Origin: Comamonadaceae bacterium
Lineage (GTDB): Bacteria > Pseudomonadota > Gammaproteobacteria > Burkholderiales > Burkholderiaceae_C
Assembly: GCA_947443645.1 (NCBI GenBank)
Contig: CANEXF010000010.1
Span: 62,001 to 126,000, forward strand
Reading direction: 5' to 3'
Length of the DNA: 64,000 nt
Below, one piece after another: positions 48,994 to 62,380 of this stretch (position 1 is the first letter of the stretch; each line of letters opens with the position of its first letter). Both the position numbers and the translations under genes were made by a program. A model generated the notes under the pieces. It worked only from the letters and a program-made list of their open reading frames with translations, searched no databases and had not been told where the DNA came from.

Positions 48994-50685
48994 TCAAGTG
49001 ATGCGGTGTTGAGGTGAGGAGAACTCACGCAGCAGCTGCGCTACGGCCTGGCTGTCGCCAGAATTATTCGCCTTGAGGTAAGCCATGACATAACGGTCGG
49101 GTCTGAGCAGCAAGGCGTCTGCGCCTGCACTGCGAATAGCTTTTTCGATCACACCATCGACATCCCGCAGCGTCGCGTCACGCGGGCCTTCAGACCTGTT
49201 GGCTGACGCGAGCGCTGGCGAAGCGCGCAGCAAGAAGTCATCGCTTTTAGCCACCACGCCAATGACTTTGCAAACCAGGCCCAGCGGCGCAAACGCTGCG
49301 AGCAAGTCCGTCGCATCAAAGCCATGCATGGCCAGCAGAGCAAAGTCGTGGCCCAAGACCTCGTCGAGCTTCACCTGCGTGCCGCCAGGCAACTCGACCT
49401 GGGGCTGCGACAACAATTGACCCGGCGGAACCAGTGCCGACTGAACTTGGCTAGCCACAAAAAAGCCCTGGAAAAACCGCGGTTTGGGTTTGAACTTGAG
49501 TTGCAGCACATAGTCCCGCACCGGTGGGTAGAGGCTGCAGAGCTTGAGCGCACCCTGCGACAGCATTGCAGCCAGAACCGACTTTGGCTGCATGAATGTG
49601 CCAATCCTCACGGCCATTTTGATAAGAGACCAGGCATGCGGCTTGCGCTCCTGCTCATAGCTTTGCAGCAGCGAGGCCGACATTCGGCCCTGCACCACGG
49701 CCGCCAGCTTCCAGGCCAGGTTGGCAGCATCGCGCACCCCGCTGTTCATGCCCTGCCCCGCAAACGGCGGCGTCAGGTGCGCTGCGTCGCCCGCCAGAAA
49801 AACGTGACCAGACTGCCAGCGCTCGGCAACACGCGCATGAAAGGCATAGACCACCTTGCGCGCGATGACCAGCTGCGCATCGGCCGGTTCACGCGCATGA
49901 ATCAGGCTACGCACCAGCGTGTCGTCCAGCATCTGATCGGGGTCCTCGCCTTCGTGCAGCATGAACTCATAGCGTAGCGTGCCGTCCGGCCCGGGCAGCC
50001 GTATCGCCGGTCTTGCCGGGTCGCAATAGGTACGGGTGTGACGAAATGCAGACTGACGGTCCAGAAGATCAACAATCAGCCACTTTTCGTCATAACTGCT
50101 CCCGGTGAGCTTGATGCCCAGCTGCTCCCGAACCGGGCTGCGGCCGCCATCGCAGGCGACCAGCCAGTTGCAGCTGATTCGCTTTGTCTGTCCGGCATGC
50201 GCAACCTCCAGATGCACCAGATTGCCCTGCTCGCCTTCATCACGAAAATGCTGCAACTCGTGGTCAAAGCAGATTGCAGATGACTCAAAGCGCTGCAGGC
50301 CATCACGCAACTGGGCAACCAGAAACTGCTGCCTGAAGGCATTGCGCTTGGAGAAACCATGCTCCACCACGCTGGGCTCAATCCGTGCAAATTCCTGGCC
50401 GCGCCAGGAGTAGTAATGCACGCCGTAGCCCTGCACCACGTGCGGCAACACCTGCTCAATCAGGCCGGCGGCCTGCACCGTTCGCAGGCTCTCGTCGTCA
50501 ATGGTGACCGCACGCGGCTCGCCGACGGTGTTGCTGCTGCGCTCAAGCACCAGCGTTTTGATGCCTTGAATGCCGAGCAGGTTGGCGAGAATCAGACCGG
50601 TCGGCCCGGCGCCCACAATCACCACCGGAAAATGCGTTTCGTCGACAAGTGGTGCGGCCGAAGTTGGCGCAAGCGGTGTGTTCAT
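48994..50685 (-). CDS. FAD-dependent aromatic hydroxylase, MhpA-like
   Basis: FPVVIVGAGPTGLILANLLGIQGIKTLVLERSSNTVGEPRAVTIDDESLRTVQAAGL...GHVFLAGDAAHLTPPFAGQGMNSGVRDAANLAWKLA. Confidence 0.92.
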   Translation of the reverse strand: MNTPLAPTSAAPLVDETHFPVVIVGAGPTGLILANLLGIQGIKTLVLERSSNTVGEPRAVTIDDESLRTVQAAGLIEQVLPHVVQGYGVHYYSWRGQEFARIEPSVVEHGFSKRNAFRQQFLVAQLRDGLQRFESSAICFDHELQHFRDEGEQGNLVHLEVAHAGQTKRISCNWLVACDGGRSPVREQLGIKLTGSSYDEKWLIVDLLDRQSAFRHTRTYCDPARPAIRLPGPDGTLRYEFMLHEGEDPDQMLDDTLVRSLIHAREPADAQLVIARKVVYAFHARVAERWQSGHVFLAGDAAHLTPPFAGQGMNSGVRDAANLAWKLAAVVQGRMSASLLQSYEQERKPHAWSLIKMAVRIGTFMQPKSVLAAMLSQGALKLCSLYPPVRDYVLQLKFKPKPRFFQGFFVASQVQSALVPPGQLLSQPQVELPGGTQVKLDEVLGHDFALLAMHGFDATDLLAAFAPLGLVCKVIGVVAKSDDFLLRASPALASANRSEGPRDATLRDVDGVIEKAIRSAGADALLLRPDRYVMAYLKANNSGDSQAVAQLLREFSSPQHRIT

Positions 50686-53219: not shown

Positions 53220-53699
53220 TCAGTTGTACTCGATGCTGATAAATCCTGGAACGGGCTGAGACACCGCGAATGTCAAAGCAACACCTCCGCTGACAACCAA
53301 CGATCCATCCGTATTTCTGGTGATACTGACGGTCGCGGCCGGAGCCGGTAGTATGGCGCTGACTGCCGCAGGTGGTACGACTGCTCCAGCCAAAACAACA
53401 CTTCCAGCTACCGGAACGGGCAATGTTACAGCGCCTGAAAGTACCCCTGAACCAAGATGCAGCAAGGGTACGACGTTGGGCAGTCCATTTGTTATTTCCT
53501 CTATCGTAACAACTGTCCCGACCAAAGCCGGCGCAGCAATGACAATGGATACGGACTCGATGACGGTCGCGTTAGCCGTACTCGACGCCGTCGCTGCAAG
53601 ACTCTGGCTATTCGCCATGATGCCAACCCCCGCAAGTAAGGCGCACAAAAAATTGACCCCAGTAATGCGGATGCGGGCGCTGCGCCTGTTATTTTTCAT
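53220..53699 (-). CDS. DUF4402-like exported subunit (subunit 3 of usher locus)
   Basis: Signal peptide, mature ATASSTANATVIESVSI..., C-terminus FISIEYN matching the other two subunits; ATG overlaps the usher stop (ATGAAAAATAA). Confidence 0.62.
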   Translation of the reverse strand: MKNNRRSARIRITGVNFLCALLAGVGIMANSQSLAATASSTANATVIESVSIVIAAPALVGTVVTIEEITNGLPNVVPLLHLGSGVLSGAVTLPVPVAGSVVLAGAVVPPAAVSAILPAPAATVSITRNTDGSLVVSGGVALTFAVSQPVPGFISIEYN

Positions 53700-56600
53700 C
53701 CTGCTCCTCCCGCTGAAGACTTGGTACTGGATTGGCTGCGATTTTGCCAAGTAAAAAATCCACGCCGTTGATGAATTTTCCGTCGGGCAGGATGGTGACC
53801 ATGCGCACGCCGGGATCCGTCAGATTGACTCGCCTCAATTGTTCCGGAGACACCCGCAATAAGTAGCGGCCCTGAGCAACGGCTGGAATGATGTAGTAGC
53901 CGTCGGAACTCGTTTTAATAGTGGACACGAGCCTGCGGTCTGTGTCAAGCAACTCCATTACTACGTCACCAATCCCGCGCTTGCTATTGTTTTCGAGCAG
54001 ATAAACCGTGCCGTCAATTTCACTGGTCAACACCACGGGAAAATCAAGTTCGGCGACATGGCCGGGGCGAGGCAGCAGGCGCACGCCTTTGCGCTGCGGC
54101 ACCCAGTACGGGTCTTCAAGCGTCTGCGTGTCAACGGCCAGGTCGACGTACTGCCGCGTCGGCAAGCGGTCCAGCCAGGCGATGCCGGAAGCATCTGTTC
54201 GCACCGGTGCACGGCTGCCATTGACCGTCATCGCAGCGTTCTCTATGGGTTCTTCGCCCGGGTCCATCACACCGTTGCCGTTGCTGTCCTGAAACACCCG
54301 CACCGATGCAGCGCCGCTGTCAGCCTTGGGTTGCGCGTCAAGCCGCCATATACCCTGGCGTGGCTCACGACCCATGGCAATGAAGAGTTGCACGCCTATG
54401 GTGTAAACGCCACTCGACGAATAGCTCGCGCTCAGGCCAAGTCCGTAGCTACCCAAGCTTTTGTTCAGACCGGCGGTGTAAACGGTTTCACTGTTGCTGA
54501 TCGAGCGCGCCACCCCAAGGTTGAGCAGATAACCTTCACCCAGGCGTCTGTCGCCTGCAAGCAAAACGGTGTCAAGTTTGGCCTGGGGCTTGAGGCTGTA
54601 AGCGAGCTGGCCGCTCAAGCCGGTCACGCCGACCCGGTAGCTCATCTGCAGCGCACCACTGGCCAGGGTCGTTCCACCAAAACGTTGCCAGGTCAGCTGA
54701 TTGGAAACCGAGGTACGGTTCACGTAGGCGGCGACCCGACCCGTCACGGCAAGATTGCTGCTACCCGACTTGAATTGGTCGCGCTGAACCTCCAGCGTCA
54801 CGGGCAAACGCGGCAGCCAGCCCGCCGGAATGGCGCCGTCGAGTCGCACCTTGTCGCGACTGCGCAAAGGATCAGTGCTGGGCAAAAAAATCTCGCTGGT
54901 GAAGTCCCGCAGCTGCATGTGGTTGTAACTCACAGCGATACCACCAAGCCTGGTTTTAAGGCCTGAATCGTTGAGCCAACCGCCATTGGGCGATCGGTAA
55001 AAATCGCTGCTGAAAATATAGGACTGCCAAAAAGCTCGCAGTCCCAGGTTGCCGTAATACTGTGCATTGGTCGCGGCGCTGCCGCTTGCACTTGTAGCGC
55101 CTGGCAAGGTCGGCAGACGCACAAAACCACCGGTGCCCGTCAAATATTTGCTGAGCCCCCATTCAAACTGCGCTACAGAACGCGACTGGCCTGAATTCTC
55201 CTGGTGTTGGGCCAAGCTGTAATAGAAGGCGCCGGCCGGCGTGCTGGACTGCTCGAGCAAAAAACTTTGCCTCTCGACGCGCTGCTGCCCGAGCGGCCCA
55301 TGAAACACCAGCCGAAAATCGTTCGGGCCATAGGCCAGCGGCTGGTCATCAAAGCTGTAGCGGCCATCAGCGCGCGAGGCCTGAAAACCGACCAGCGCTT
55401 CATTAAAATAGAGCTCCACGTCCCATCCTGGCGGCAGGTCGCCCTGCAAGGTATGCCGGTCAAAGCTGGTCGGCTGGGTGATGGGTCGGTTGCTCAGATT
55501 CAAGCCGTAGCCGGTACCGGTCGCAGTGCGGTTGGCGATATTGGCCACGCTGGGCACCGTGACGCCGCTGCCAAACATCACAGAGCTCGCGCTCAGCGGC
55601 CCAAGCAAATTGGTATCAGGGTCATGGCGCGCGAGCGTGAAACGAAAATCCGGCGTCGGATTCTGCCGTGAGCTGCTGAGAAACACCGCAGCTTCAGTGC
55701 CCAGTAGATCGCCTGTCAGGTAAGCGGTGTAATTGGCACTGGTCTGGCGGCTGCCATTGCCGGCCTTGAGTCCGAGGCCAAAGGTCTGGTCAATGAACGG
55801 CACACCGAACAAGCGGTAAGGCATGTCGTACTTCGGATAACCCGGGTCTTCATAGCCGGTTCGGGTGCCGACTCTGGCACCCAGACGCTCACGCTCCAGC
55901 CGCTCTTGCAGTGGCAAGCGCTCCCTGGGCTTGACCCGCAGCACGAGGCTGGACAAGTCCACCTCCAGATCAATTGGCAACCAGCGCGTCAACAGTGAAC
56001 TCGCAACATAAATATCGTCGCTTTGCAGCCTGACGAGCGCGGGGTCATAGACCTGTGTCTGCTCAGCAAGCGTGATGCGTGACTGGGCGACATCAAGACT
56101 GAAGCCCCTGGCCTGATTCAAGATATAGCCCTCGGCCACGCCCTGCTCAGGCTGCGCCCGTATCGCCAAGGTCAGCAATCTTGCGAGCTCGCCCAGCGGC
56201 AAAAAAGTTTCCCGGCCCGACTGGTAGCTTGTGATCGCATCTGTCAGCACATAGCTATCGAGCTGCACTTCCAGCAGGGCGAGCGTTCGCTCATCGGCGC
56301 TGCGCGGCGGCAACTGTGCAGTCACTAGCGGCGCCAATGCAGATTCAGCCACATTACCAGACAGCAGCGCAGCAGGCGGCAGGCGCGGCACCTGGGGAGC
56401 CGCAGAAACGGCGGCGCTTGGCGAGGTCGATGCCACGAGGGGGGGCGCGAACTCCAGCACCAGCCGATAGTCCTTGCCAGCCTCTGGTTTGACCGAAAAG
56501 ATTTTCGGTTCAACTTCACGCTTTAAGGCGAACTCCAGCTCCACGGCGTCGGCGTGAGCGCGTGAAGGCCTGATGGCCAGACTCTTTATCGACGGATGTG

Positions 56601-56934
56601 TTTCAGCAAGCTGGCCGGCCAATCCTGTCAGCGTCGGGTTAAGCGCCACCCCGTCAAGCTCAAGCACCAGCCGCTCGGGATTGCGCAAGATAAACAGGCT
56701 AAAACGCAACTCTGCTTTTGACTCCAGCACCATGCGGGTCGCGCCGTCTGTCTGCTCCAGCGACGCCGCGCTGATGGGTACGGCGGCCAAGGCCATGCTG
56801 GGTAACAAGGCCATAAAAACCAGCGCCCAGACCGAAGCAGGCAGTATCCAGTAAGGAAATATCCTGAGACTTGCACCGCCAGCAAGCTGCGGCCCAAGCT
56901 GGCCAAGGCTGATACGCGGCAGCGTCATGGTCAT
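53689..56934 (-). CDS. Usher-like outer membrane protein with N-terminal AMIN-like domain and C-terminal Ig/CarboxypepD-like domains
   Basis: AMIN-like (ATRMVLESKAELRFSLFILRNPERLVLELDGVAL); usher-like (RPITQPTSFDRHTLQGDLPPGWDVELYFNEALVGFQASRADGRYSFDDQPLAYGPNDFRLVFHGPLGQQR); C-terminal ASVRVFQDSNGNGVMDPGEEPIENAAMTVNG and SEIDGTVYLLENNSKRGIGDVVMELLDTD. Confidence 0.85.
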   Translation of the reverse strand: MTMTLPRISLGQLGPQLAGGASLRIFPYWILPASVWALVFMALLPSMALAAVPISAASLEQTDGATRMVLESKAELRFSLFILRNPERLVLELDGVALNPTLTGLAGQLAETHPSIKSLAIRPSRAHADAVELEFALKREVEPKIFSVKPEAGKDYRLVLEFAPPLVASTSPSAAVSAAPQVPRLPPAALLSGNVAESALAPLVTAQLPPRSADERTLALLEVQLDSYVLTDAITSYQSGRETFLPLGELARLLTLAIRAQPEQGVAEGYILNQARGFSLDVAQSRITLAEQTQVYDPALVRLQSDDIYVASSLLTRWLPIDLEVDLSSLVLRVKPRERLPLQERLERERLGARVGTRTGYEDPGYPKYDMPYRLFGVPFIDQTFGLGLKAGNGSRQTSANYTAYLTGDLLGTEAAVFLSSSRQNPTPDFRFTLARHDPDTNLLGPLSASSVMFGSGVTVPSVANIANRTATGTGYGLNLSNRPITQPTSFDRHTLQGDLPPGWDVELYFNEALVGFQASRADGRYSFDDQPLAYGPNDFRLVFHGPLGQQRVERQSFLLEQSSTPAGAFYYSLAQHQENSGQSRSVAQFEWGLSKYLTGTGGFVRLPTLPGATSASGSAATNAQYYGNLGLRAFWQSYIFSSDFYRSPNGGWLNDSGLKTRLGGIAVSYNHMQLRDFTSEIFLPSTDPLRSRDKVRLDGAIPAGWLPRLPVTLEVQRDQFKSGSSNLAVTGRVAAYVNRTSVSNQLTWQRFGGTTLASGALQMSYRVGVTGLSGQLAYSLKPQAKLDTVLLAGDRRLGEGYLLNLGVARSISNSETVYTAGLNKSLGSYGLGLSASYSSSGVYTIGVQLFIAMGREPRQGIWRLDAQPKADSGAASVRVFQDSNGNGVMDPGEEPIENAAMTVNGSRAPVRTDASGIAWLDRLPTRQYVDLAVDTQTLEDPYWVPQRKGVRLLPRPGHVAELDFPVVLTSEIDGTVYLLENNSKRGIGDVVMELLDTDRRLVSTIKTSSDGYYIIPAVAQGRYLLRVSPEQLRRVNLTDPGVRMVTILPDGKFINGVDFLLGKIAANPVPSLQREEQDEK

Positions 56935-56954
56935 GGCCAGCGACGGTCAGGAAC

Positions 56955-57875
56955 TCAGGGCAAATCGATAGCGGCTTCTGCCAGCAGTTTTCCGCCCGAC
57001 TCTGGTCGCTCCCTGAAGCTCAGGCGCAAGGTACCATGCGCGAGCACCGTGCCAGAGGCCGGCTTGAGCTCCAACCTGACACGGCGCAACAAGTTGGGGG
57101 TGTAGACCGCGACACCACCGGCCCGACCGACCTCCTGCATTGCTCCGCCCTGCGGCGTGAATGTAGCCACCAGATCACCGTAAACAGAGCGATTGCCACT
57201 GCGCTGCAGCACCGCAGCGAGTACTGAATTTTGGCCAGCCGCAGGTTTGAGCAGTTCCACACCAGACACCGCCACACTAGCCGTCGTATCACCCTGCCTG
57301 ACAATCACCGGGATAGACACACCCACCAGCGCCTTGAGTTGCACACCTACCTCGCCGGCGCCCAGTTTGGGGGCTTGCGCGTCAATGCTGCTAACACCGC
57401 TGGATTCGGCAACCAGGTCAAACTGCAGGTGCGAGCGGTACTCACCAACCGGCAGATCGGCTGGTTTGCGCAACAAGATTCGTATGGTCTGACTGCGGCC
57501 AGGCGCCAGCACCACCTGCCGTGGTGAATAGCGCAGCAACTCATCAGCGAACAGCTCGCCTGGCAAAGCCTTGTCAGCCGGAGAAAATTCCCCGGTCTCC
57601 GTCATACGCCGGTTCACCAGGTTGATGCGATAGGTCGTGCTTTCCTGGCCGTTGTTGATCAGCTCCAATTGGGCTGACCGCTGATTTTTCTCAAACACGA
57701 TGCGCGTCGGAAACAGCATCAGGTCTGCCGAGGCTGGAGACGCGGCGAGCAGCATGAGCAAAGCCGCCAAAAACCAGACACTCATAGAACGAAGAGCCAA
57801 ACCGATATGCGGCTTGAACCTGCTGGCAGCATCTGGCAGGGCAGTACGGGAAGCAACAGTAGGGATTGGCGACAT
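56955..57875 (-). CDS. PapD-like periplasmic fimbrial chaperone
   Basis: DLMLFPTRIVFEKNQRSAQLELINNGQESTTYRINLVNRRM...YSPRQVVLAPGRSQTIRILLRKPADLPVGEYRSHLQF. Confidence 0.87.
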   Translation of the reverse strand: MSPIPTVASRTALPDAASRFKPHIGLALRSMSVWFLAALLMLLAASPASADLMLFPTRIVFEKNQRSAQLELINNGQESTTYRINLVNRRMTETGEFSPADKALPGELFADELLRYSPRQVVLAPGRSQTIRILLRKPADLPVGEYRSHLQFDLVAESSGVSSIDAQAPKLGAGEVGVQLKALVGVSIPVIVRQGDTTASVAVSGVELLKPAAGQNSVLAAVLQRSGNRSVYGDLVATFTPQGGAMQEVGRAGGVAVYTPNLLRRVRLELKPASGTVLAHGTLRLSFRERPESGGKLLAEAAIDLP

Positions 57876-57996
57876 GGCTTGGCTTTCTGAGTTGCAAAGG
57901 AGCTGGTCGCAGCCAAGCCAGAGCGCGGGCCGGTTTGCGTTCTTGTTTTCGACTGATTGAGCCGGAGAGCTTGGTGCAGGCATAGGCAAATGGGGC

Positions 57997-58449
57997 TTAG
58001 TTGTAGTTAATGGTGACGTCGAAACTGCCGCCGTAGCTGCCACTTGCCTGGTTGCTACCGACACTCAGCGTTGCGCCAACCGAGAGTGTTTGTGAGCCGC
58101 CTCCGCTGAGCTGACCAACAGTTGCCGGGCTGCTCGTGAAGCTGTTAACCGCCATGGAGTTGGCGCCACTGGTGAGCGACACCACACCGTTGCCAGGCAA
58201 GGTGATGGCGTAGGTCGCGTTGGCATTTCCGCTGACGTTGAATGTGGCGGCAGAGCCACTTGCAGACGGCACCAAAATCACGCCACCGCCTTGGGTGCGC
58301 GCACCCGCAGCGCTGATGGTGACCGTACCGCTTCCACCAGCGGCGAAACTACCAAAGGCCAGCGACTGCACAGCAGAGATGGATTGCGCCTGGCTTGGGT
58401 ATGCAAAGGCTGCTGCACACAACAGCGCGAACAGGCTGAACTTTTGCAT
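57997..58449 (-). CDS. DUF4402-like exported subunit (subunit 2, no N-terminal extension)
   Basis: Signal peptide MQKFSLFALLCAAAFAYPSQA, mature QSISAVQSLAFGSFAAGG..., C-terminus GSFDVTINYN; paralogous to 58635..59180. Confidence 0.75.
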   Translation of the reverse strand: MQKFSLFALLCAAAFAYPSQAQSISAVQSLAFGSFAAGGSGTVTISAAGARTQGGGVILVPSASGSAATFNVSGNANATYAITLPGNGVVSLTSGANSMAVNSFTSSPATVGQLSGGGSQTLSVGATLSVGSNQASGSYGGSFDVTINYN

Positions 58450-58634
58450 TGCATGCCCTTCCCTTCAAGCTCGCCTTCGAGCGAGATCGATTGTTCCGTA
58501 GTCGAGTATCCCCAAGAGCCACGACTGCCGGCCTACGACCCATTACGCCGAGTAAAGCCCGGCACACCCATCACGGCATCCAGTCGTCGGCAGGCGCGTT
58601 GCGTTCAGCGCTGCTCACAAGGCTTAGCGGCTGC

Positions 58635-59180
58635 TTAGTTGTAGTCCACCGAAACGTTAAAACTACCGGTATAAGCGCCTGCTACCTGGCTGGCCACGGT
58701 CGTGATGGTGGCGCCCACTGACAAGGTTTGCGCGCCAGCGGTCAAGGTACCCGTGGTTGCAGGGAAACTGGTAAAGGAACTGACCGCCATGGTCTCGGGA
58801 CCGGTCTGAGTGCCGGTCGTGATGTTCACGGTACCGTTGCTTGGCAGCGTGATCGCATAAGTCAGCGAACCATCGCCAGTGACGTTAAAAGTGGCAGCTC
58901 CGGTCGTCGAGGTCACAAGAAGCACGCCACTGTTGGTGCGGGCACTGGTCTGTGCATTGATGGTCACCGTCTGCGCAGCTGCGCTGGTAGAAAACGAGCC
59001 AAAGCGCAAAGTGTTGGCCGCAGCAATGGAAATTGGGGTGACCACCGTTGCCGTCGCCGTGTTCGAAGTCGAGGCGGCGTAAGCATTGACACCCAGACCG
59101 GCGCATGCCAGACCAAGGGTCGATACCAGTGCGGCGTGCAATGCACGGCGCTTGAAAGTTGCAGATATACCTGATTTCAT
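58635..59180 (-). CDS. DUF4402-like exported subunit (subunit 1, probable major subunit)
   Basis: Signal peptide ending AYA; mature ASTSNTATATVVTPISIAAANTLRFGSFST..., C-terminus GSFNVSVDYN; strong RBS GAAGGAGTGATC. Confidence 0.77.
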   Translation of the reverse strand: MKSGISATFKRRALHAALVSTLGLACAGLGVNAYAASTSNTATATVVTPISIAAANTLRFGSFSTSAAAQTVTINAQTSARTNSGVLLVTSTTGAATFNVTGDGSLTYAITLPSNGTVNITTGTQTGPETMAVSSFTSFPATTGTLTAGAQTLSVGATITTVASQVAGAYTGSFNVSVDYN

Positions 59181-59685
59181 GATCACTCCTTCGTTAATGA
59201 ATTGGACTTACATCACTTAAATGACCTCTACACCCACCCTGCCCGCCAGCCTCGTCAACAAAACATACAAGGACAGACTCCAGCGTCGCGACACAACAAA
59301 TTTCGACAAACGTTCCTTTAGGACCACTTTTTTTGAATTCTATTTTTCAAAATGTGACTTATGTTGACAAATATCATAATTTATTAACCGGTATTTGCAA
59401 CAACTTGTAATTAATTATTTAGAAATGCCAAATTTAACTCAAAAAATCGCTTGAAGTAGTTTTTTGGTAACTTCTGACGGCTTTTAAACGGCAATTCACC
59501 ACCAAGAATGCCAAAAACAAGCAACAAAATGTGTTCGGCGCAATCGGGCAATTAAAAAAGCAGCGCTGGCTGTTGGCCCTGCTGCAATTCAAAAAATCCA
59601 GGCAACAAAGAGCTTCAGGCCCGAGTGCGCCGCGCTGGTCGGCGCTTTGGGCCAGGGACGAACGGGTTTGGCCCTGCTAGCTGAT

Positions 59686-59742
59686 AACGATTAAATCTGG
59701 CTTTAGCGCATGACTGCCTTGCGCCAGCAGCTATAAATTAAG
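59686..59742 (+). repeat. Dispersed ~57-nt hairpin element, copy h (diverged)
   Basis: attaaatctggctttagcgcatgactgccttgcgccagcagctataaattaagtagca; right half matches the consensus GCGC..GCAGCTAT....TAGCA. Confidence 0.5.
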
Positions 59743-59776
59743 TAGCAGACAGGATGAATGTTTGCTGCCGCCGGCT

Positions 59777-60514
59777 TTACCAGCCAGCCGCGGCAAAGAT
59801 CATGGACTGCTTGTTGCGCCGCCAAGTGACGGCATGCGGATGCACGGCCAGCCACCAGGTTTGCATCGCGGGACGCGGCCTGGGCTTGGCAAATGCTTGC
59901 GGCGTGAGCAGTGCCACACACCACGCCGGCTGGGTGTCGCGCACAGATTGGTATTGAATGCCGCCCAAGCTGGCTTGGCGTGCGACTTGCGCGAAGGCCT
60001 GCGTGGCACTGTAGTCGGTGCGGTGCAACCAGGCAGAGGCATTGGCGCTGAATGGCGGCAGGCGCAAATCGACCAGTTGCGTGCTCACATCGACACTGAA
60101 AGCCGTGTGCGTCACTGGTTCGAGTTTATTCAGATCCACCGCGTCCTTGAGAAATCGCCAGCGCCAATACCCCAGCTCCGCGCTGGCGGTGCGCACCGAC
60201 TCGGCGCCATAAAACACGCCCGGGTCGGTGATGGCCCGAAAGCGGGAGCCGCCGCGCAGCGGGTTATAGCGAAATGGCGTGGCCAGCAGGTAGTCGAGCG
60301 CCAAAGCGCTGTCCGGCTGAGCGGGCTTGCTGCCTTCCAGCAAGGTCTCCAGCAGGTCTTGCTCGACGCCGTTGTCAACGATTTTCATGGTCGAGGCGGT
60401 GTGCTGCGCCTCGACCATGCGCCACACCGGTCCAGACCAGGCAAAAGCCTCAGACGAGACTGCGGCTGGCGTCAAGGTATTGAACAACACGGACCAAACC
60501 TTCGGTATGCCCAA
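59777..60514 (-). CDS. RES domain-containing protein (ADP-ribosyltransferase-fold toxin family)
   Basis: WSGPVWRMVEAQHTASTMKIVDNGVEQDLLETLLEGSKP...LDYLLATPFRYNPLRGGSRFRAITDPGVFYGAESVRTASAELGYWRWRFLKDAV; true start probably downstream of 60514. Confidence 0.86.
   Translation of the reverse strand: MGIPKVWSVLFNTLTPAAVSSEAFAWSGPVWRMVEAQHTASTMKIVDNGVEQDLLETLLEGSKPAQPDSALALDYLLATPFRYNPLRGGSRFRAITDPGVFYGAESVRTASAELGYWRWRFLKDAVDLNKLEPVTHTAFSVDVSTQLVDLRLPPFSANASAWLHRTDYSATQAFAQVARQASLGGIQYQSVRDTQPAWCVALLTPQAFAKPRPRPAMQTWWLAVHPHAVTWRRNKQSMIFAAAGW

Positions 60515-60955: not shown

Positions 60956-62380
<1,425 letters not shown>

Follow-up and report, generated by a model that had tools for sequence, protein, structure and literature searches.

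Which kind of assembly system is encoded by the five intact, co-directional genes lying on the minus strand between positions 53220 and 59180 of the window, as we call the whole 64,000-nucleotide stretch of a Comamonadaceae genome analysed here, and does it belong to any of the known chaperone-usher classes? In the order of transcription, these genes encode two subunits (s1 and s2), a chaperone, an usher, and a third subunit (s3). A sequence-only reading had proposed them, in this same order, as a divergent and possibly undescribed chaperone-usher branch exporting DUF4402-type fibres. Its coordinates were right, except for three start codons that we corrected from the ribosome-site context and from the relatives. 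The gene for s1 (58635-59180) most likely starts at the ATG at 59180, with AAGGAG ahead of it, instead of the GTG at 59186 used before; the chaperone reading frame from the GTG at 58064 (369 aa) is over-extended, the ATG at 57875 (306 aa) being the start that fits the conserved part; and the gene for s3 most likely starts at the ATG at 53699 (159 aa). All five genes appear in identical order in a Polaromonas MAG (L034) and in a further locus (L053), a recurrence that takes the set beyond chance, and the short contig L033 carries the s2, chaperone, and usher genes. Compared with their relatives, the five genes have dN/dS values of about 0.14-0.24, approximate figures because dS is near or beyond saturation, and therefore all of them look under purifying selection. 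A pseudogene remnant is ruled out by the intact reading frames and by dN/dS values well below 1.

The subunits s1 and s2 (57997-58449) are members of the DUF4402 family (PF14352) well above the Pfam cut-off, with values of 7.2e-24 and 3.9e-31, respectively. The more divergent s3 (53220-53699), the start of whose gene overlaps the end of the usher gene by 11 bases, has no Pfam match; a DUF4402 profile from which it had been left out picks it up weakly, at 0.0013 for the window copy and at 8.6e-5 and 3.9e-4 for its relatives; it is conserved in L034, L035, L036, and L053. The DUF4402-like character assigned to the three proteins from the bare sequence is thereby borne out, as is the lack of cysteines after their signal peptides: mature s1-s3 are cysteine-free because their only cysteines sit inside the predicted signal peptides.

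In classical pilins, the strand recognised by the chaperone is marked by a glycine 14 residues from the end, a penultimate aromatic residue, and alternating hydrophobic residues. At the level of sequence, this strand is reproduced by the C-termini of s1 and s2, both of which have the glycine at -14 and a penultimate tyrosine, while s3 ends in YN and the glycine is absent. The two marks occur together in 27 of the 46 subunit sequences collected, which are related and do not represent 27 independent events, and in 15 of the 17 fimbrial subunits of E. coli K-12 that served as a yardstick. Subunits of the s1 class additionally have an N-terminal extension of around 15-20 residues, with alternating hydrophobic positions, before the first conserved strand; among the Comamonadaceae loci, s2-class subunits have a short N-terminus without this extension. 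Homology between DUF4402 as a whole and the FimA-type pilins is not demonstrable (7% in the profile comparison), so a pilin-type fold is only inferred for the family. A search of DUF4402 against the PDB returned weak adhesin-like matches only (clumping factor B, 0.011), and the AlphaFold models of a subunit and of the usher, built on shallow alignments of 3 and 5 sequences, reached pLDDT values of 30 and 36, respectively, too low for a fold to be assigned with confidence.

The chaperone (56955-57875) grazes the PapD_N model as a single sequence (0.019), and its family supports the PapD-like identity originally given to it, since PapD_N matches 20 of the 22 members, the best at 2.7e-8, and the family profile matches that of FimC and the archaic chaperones at 98.3% (0.3% for the reversed-sequence control). 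In the PDB, single-sequence and family-profile searches gave weak matches to PapD-type chaperones only. The first-strand arginine is kept in 16 of the 17 chaperones compared, among which the second basic residue of the classical carboxylate anchor is not conserved. In lacking this second residue, the family is reminiscent of the non-classical chaperones, in which the carboxylate anchor departs from the classical arrangement (PMC4654587).

The usher gene (53689-56934) encodes a protein of 1081 residues with a signal peptide, an AMIN domain (residues about 55-163; 4.2e-6 with the AMIN model and 1.1e-26 with an AmiC-derived profile), a family-specific N-module (216-345), a barrel (about 360-860) with its plug (about 498-560), and C-terminal domains resembling SdrD_B and CarboxypepD_reg (about 875-1060). 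None of the 24 family members is above the cut-off of the Pfam models Usher (PF00577), PapC_N, PapC_C, TcfC, and CooC_C or of the NCBIfam usher models; PF00577 appears below threshold in three of them. However, hhalign matches the family profile to that of 11 PF00577 ushers, classical and archaic, at 99.0% over 536 columns, with the plug, the barrel, and the C-terminal domains in register, whereas control comparisons with a TonB-receptor profile and with reversed sequences remained at 0.3% and 4.6%. A PapC-type architecture, on the presence of which the sequence-only reading had made its own interpretation of the large protein depend, is hence recovered by profile-profile comparison. The match to the alternative ushers, represented by EcpC and seven relatives taken from the class sample and from plasmid records, extends over 567 columns at 96.5%. 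No usher was matched in the PDB by single-sequence or family-profile searches. No similarity to PapC_N was detected for the N-module, which weakly resembles Cu_amine_oxidN1 in 8 of the 24 members and is single or duplicated across the family. It is duplicated in the ushers of L055, L056, L057, and L058, and the AMIN domain of the window clade sits where these ushers have the first copy.

It could be argued that such a protein does not represent a separate branch and has simply diverged within the archaic (sigma) or the alternative (alpha) class. The closest single match is indeed the archaic set for both the usher (98.5%) and the chaperone (98.2%), the CarboxypepD_reg-like C-terminal domain is common to this usher and the alternative usher EcpC, and one of the 24 family members grazes the TcfC model, at 0.086. 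Nevertheless, classical and archaic ushers score 326 against each other, far above the 112-138 that either obtains against this family, and the alternative ushers score 84-135 against the other classes and 94 against this family. By these scores, the distance between the family and each known class is about the same as that separating the alternative class from the others. The models by which the classes are recognised point in the same direction: the classical PF00577, PapC_N, and PapC_C are not above cut-off, nor is the PF00577 of the archaic ushers, and the TcfC E-set and CooC_C models, which recover EcpC at 6e-19 and 7e-21, detect no member of this family above cut-off. Moreover, the pilin domains of the archaic systems have invariant cysteines (PMC4654587), contrary to the mature subunits of the window. 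Membership in one of these two classes therefore seems doubtful to us, and the divergent branch suspected from the sequence is found to lie outside the characterised clades.

The comparison with each class is consistent with this. With the classical systems, such as E. coli type 1 with FimC and FimD, the locus shares the aligned plug, barrel, and C-terminal domains of the usher, the glycine and tyrosine of the subunit motif, and the first-strand arginine of the chaperone, but it differs in the family-specific N-module that stands in the absence of PapC_N and PapC_C, in its cysteine-free DUF4402 subunits, and in the extra AMIN or SPOR domains. The archaic systems (Csu, CupE) are likewise compact and have an incomplete classical carboxylate-anchor pair, whereas their ushers belong to PF00577 and their subunits are of the spore-coat-U type. 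As for the alternative systems (EcpC, CooC/TcfC), neither their ushers nor those described here match PF00577, but TcfC and CooC_C separate the two, and EcpA does not have the glycine and tyrosine motif present in DUF4402. None of the open-access papers covered by our search mentions DUF4402 or PF14352, and an earlier description may exist in subscription journals or preprints.

The AMIN domain is restricted to four closely related ushers among the approximately 35 examined, it is kept in all four, and that of the window usher is closest to AmiC. Three ushers of other families (L039, L067, and L073) have C-terminal SPOR matches, and the Pseudoalteromonas locus is flanked by two genes for SPOR proteins. 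AMIN and SPOR are both peptidoglycan-binding folds, and because ushers are linked to such folds repeatedly and in different lineages, the pattern suggests that these domains may anchor the usher to the cell wall or determine its placement. To our knowledge, no usher anchored to peptidoglycan through either domain has been described. In the alternative explanation, the locus would work as a chaperone-usher system and AMIN would be a passenger without any wall-binding role, as its confinement to four close relatives would allow. Its retention in all of them, within an usher that, taken overall, is under purifying selection, and the joining of SPOR, a different fold with the same binding property, to ushers of other families make a passenger role somewhat unlikely. 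The nearest parallel for a wall-binding usher is the PilQ secretin of the type IVa pili, likewise a pore protein of the outer membrane, whose N-terminal AMIN domain faces the periplasm, binds peptidoglycan, and gives the secretin its location (PMC5285504). The pore here is an usher and not a secretin, its AMIN domain is nearest to that of AmiC, and its wall binding is only predicted.

The usher family occurs across Proteobacteria, and its distribution follows that of DUF4402. Since an order-wide search with the whole usher was swamped by the AMIN domains of AmiC, a barrel-only query was used instead. Among 273 genomes of the class, the window's own excluded, the usher is present in 10, DUF4402 in 10, and both in 8 (Fisher 3e-12; 3e-10 when counted by genus), and among 398 genomes of the phylum the usher is present in 12, DUF4402 in 10, and both in 9 (Fisher 3e-15). 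A few genomes have only one of the partners, and in 23 genomes examined the distance between the usher match and its closest DUF4402 is 0.6-3.2 kb. The export of DUF4402-type fibres, as put forward from the sequence, is thus strongly supported as a genetic pairing.

Two genomes of one genus (G598 and G714) have five or six DUF4402 matches and no detected usher of this family, and in genome G529 the usher with two SPOR matches (L073:7786-11397) has no obvious adjacent subunit, nor does this genome have any DUF4402 match. Partial loci are found on a Curvibacter MAG contig (L035:3661-4933) and a Polaromonas MAG contig (L036:6621-7893), both of them consisting of the C-terminal 282 residues of the usher followed by s3 and surrounded by the same flanking genes; they are apparently decayed or truncated copies of the locus. 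In the family of the window, 8 of the 301 genomes, its own included, have the usher, which is absent from three further members of the window's genus; being so sparse and missing from these congeneric genomes, the usher is regarded as an accessory trait.

Plasmids of Polaromonas, Sphingopyxis, Novosphingobium, and Pseudoalteromonas carry the DUF4402, chaperone, and usher genes in the same order, near IS6 elements in the two Polaromonas plasmids. The paper on the Polaromonas plasmids makes no mention of fimbriae, usher, or chaperone, though pE5SP1 bears a homologous set. RefSeq calls the usher homologues 'carboxypeptidase-like regulatory domain-containing protein' or 'hypothetical protein', and none of them usher. 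This naming, and the fact that only the end domains are above the Pfam cut-off, would agree with a different kind of outer-membrane or surface protein that has SdrD_B/carboxypeptidase-regulatory-like domains and whose neighbours have nothing to do with fibre assembly, but such a reading is very improbable given the specific usher profile match, with its negative controls, and a PapD-like chaperone gene that adjoins the usher in every annotated plasmid locus examined (in one of them unnamed but homologous).

Space for an operon promoter would clearly be available only in the AT-rich intergenic stretch upstream of s1 (59187-59760), the GC content over 59000-59999 being 50.9% versus around 60% in the operon. 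A promoter scan gave three weak promoter-like sites on the minus strand upstream of s1, with a total count no better than in shuffled sequences; a terminator scan did no better than shuffles either, and the composition gave no island signal apart from the AT-rich stretch. On the minus strand, the reading frame at 60956-62380 (474 aa) presumably resembles benzoyl-CoA epoxidase subunit B, and a monooxygenase-like reading frame lies at 48994-50685; the two suggest that the fibre locus sits among genes for aromatic degradation.

Judged from the sequences, then, the machinery is homologous, the subunits bear the motif, and the genetic pairing is in place, and we conclude with considerable confidence that the locus encodes the complete assembly system of a fourth, unnamed chaperone-usher branch. 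Very probably, the product of the five genes is a thin fibre of protein at the cell surface, and the formation of this fibre, its donor-strand exchange, the order of its subunits, and its tethering may be inferred as follows. After export through Sec, the subunits would have Ig-like folds without the last strand, for which the chaperone would lend a strand of its own while reading the C-terminal strand of the subunit. The usher would then displace the chaperone, whose place is taken by the N-terminal extension of the incoming subunit. The shaft would consist of s1, the subunit with this extension; s2 does not have it, could only accept a strand, and is predicted at the tip; and s3 would be a minor subunit, acting as base or adaptor. 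In the window clade, the AMIN domain may tether the usher to peptidoglycan, perhaps at the division sites or the poles, in the manner of PilQ (PMC5285504). A more far-reaching proposal seems to us evenly balanced: a fourth class found in alpha- and gammaproteobacteria (in the sense of GTDB, including Burkholderiales), in which an usher with an N-module of a new type builds DUF4402 fibres and, in several lineages, is anchored to peptidoglycan, and perhaps positioned, through AMIN or SPOR.

With the locus read as a chaperone-usher branch, DUF4402 passes from a domain of unknown function to a probable pilin family, and the 'carboxypeptidase-like' proteins of the public genomes gain an identity as ushers. 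These results suggest that a whole branch is overlooked when fimbrial systems are counted by PF00577, and a wall-bound usher would provide a testable case for how chaperone-usher fibres get placed and held.
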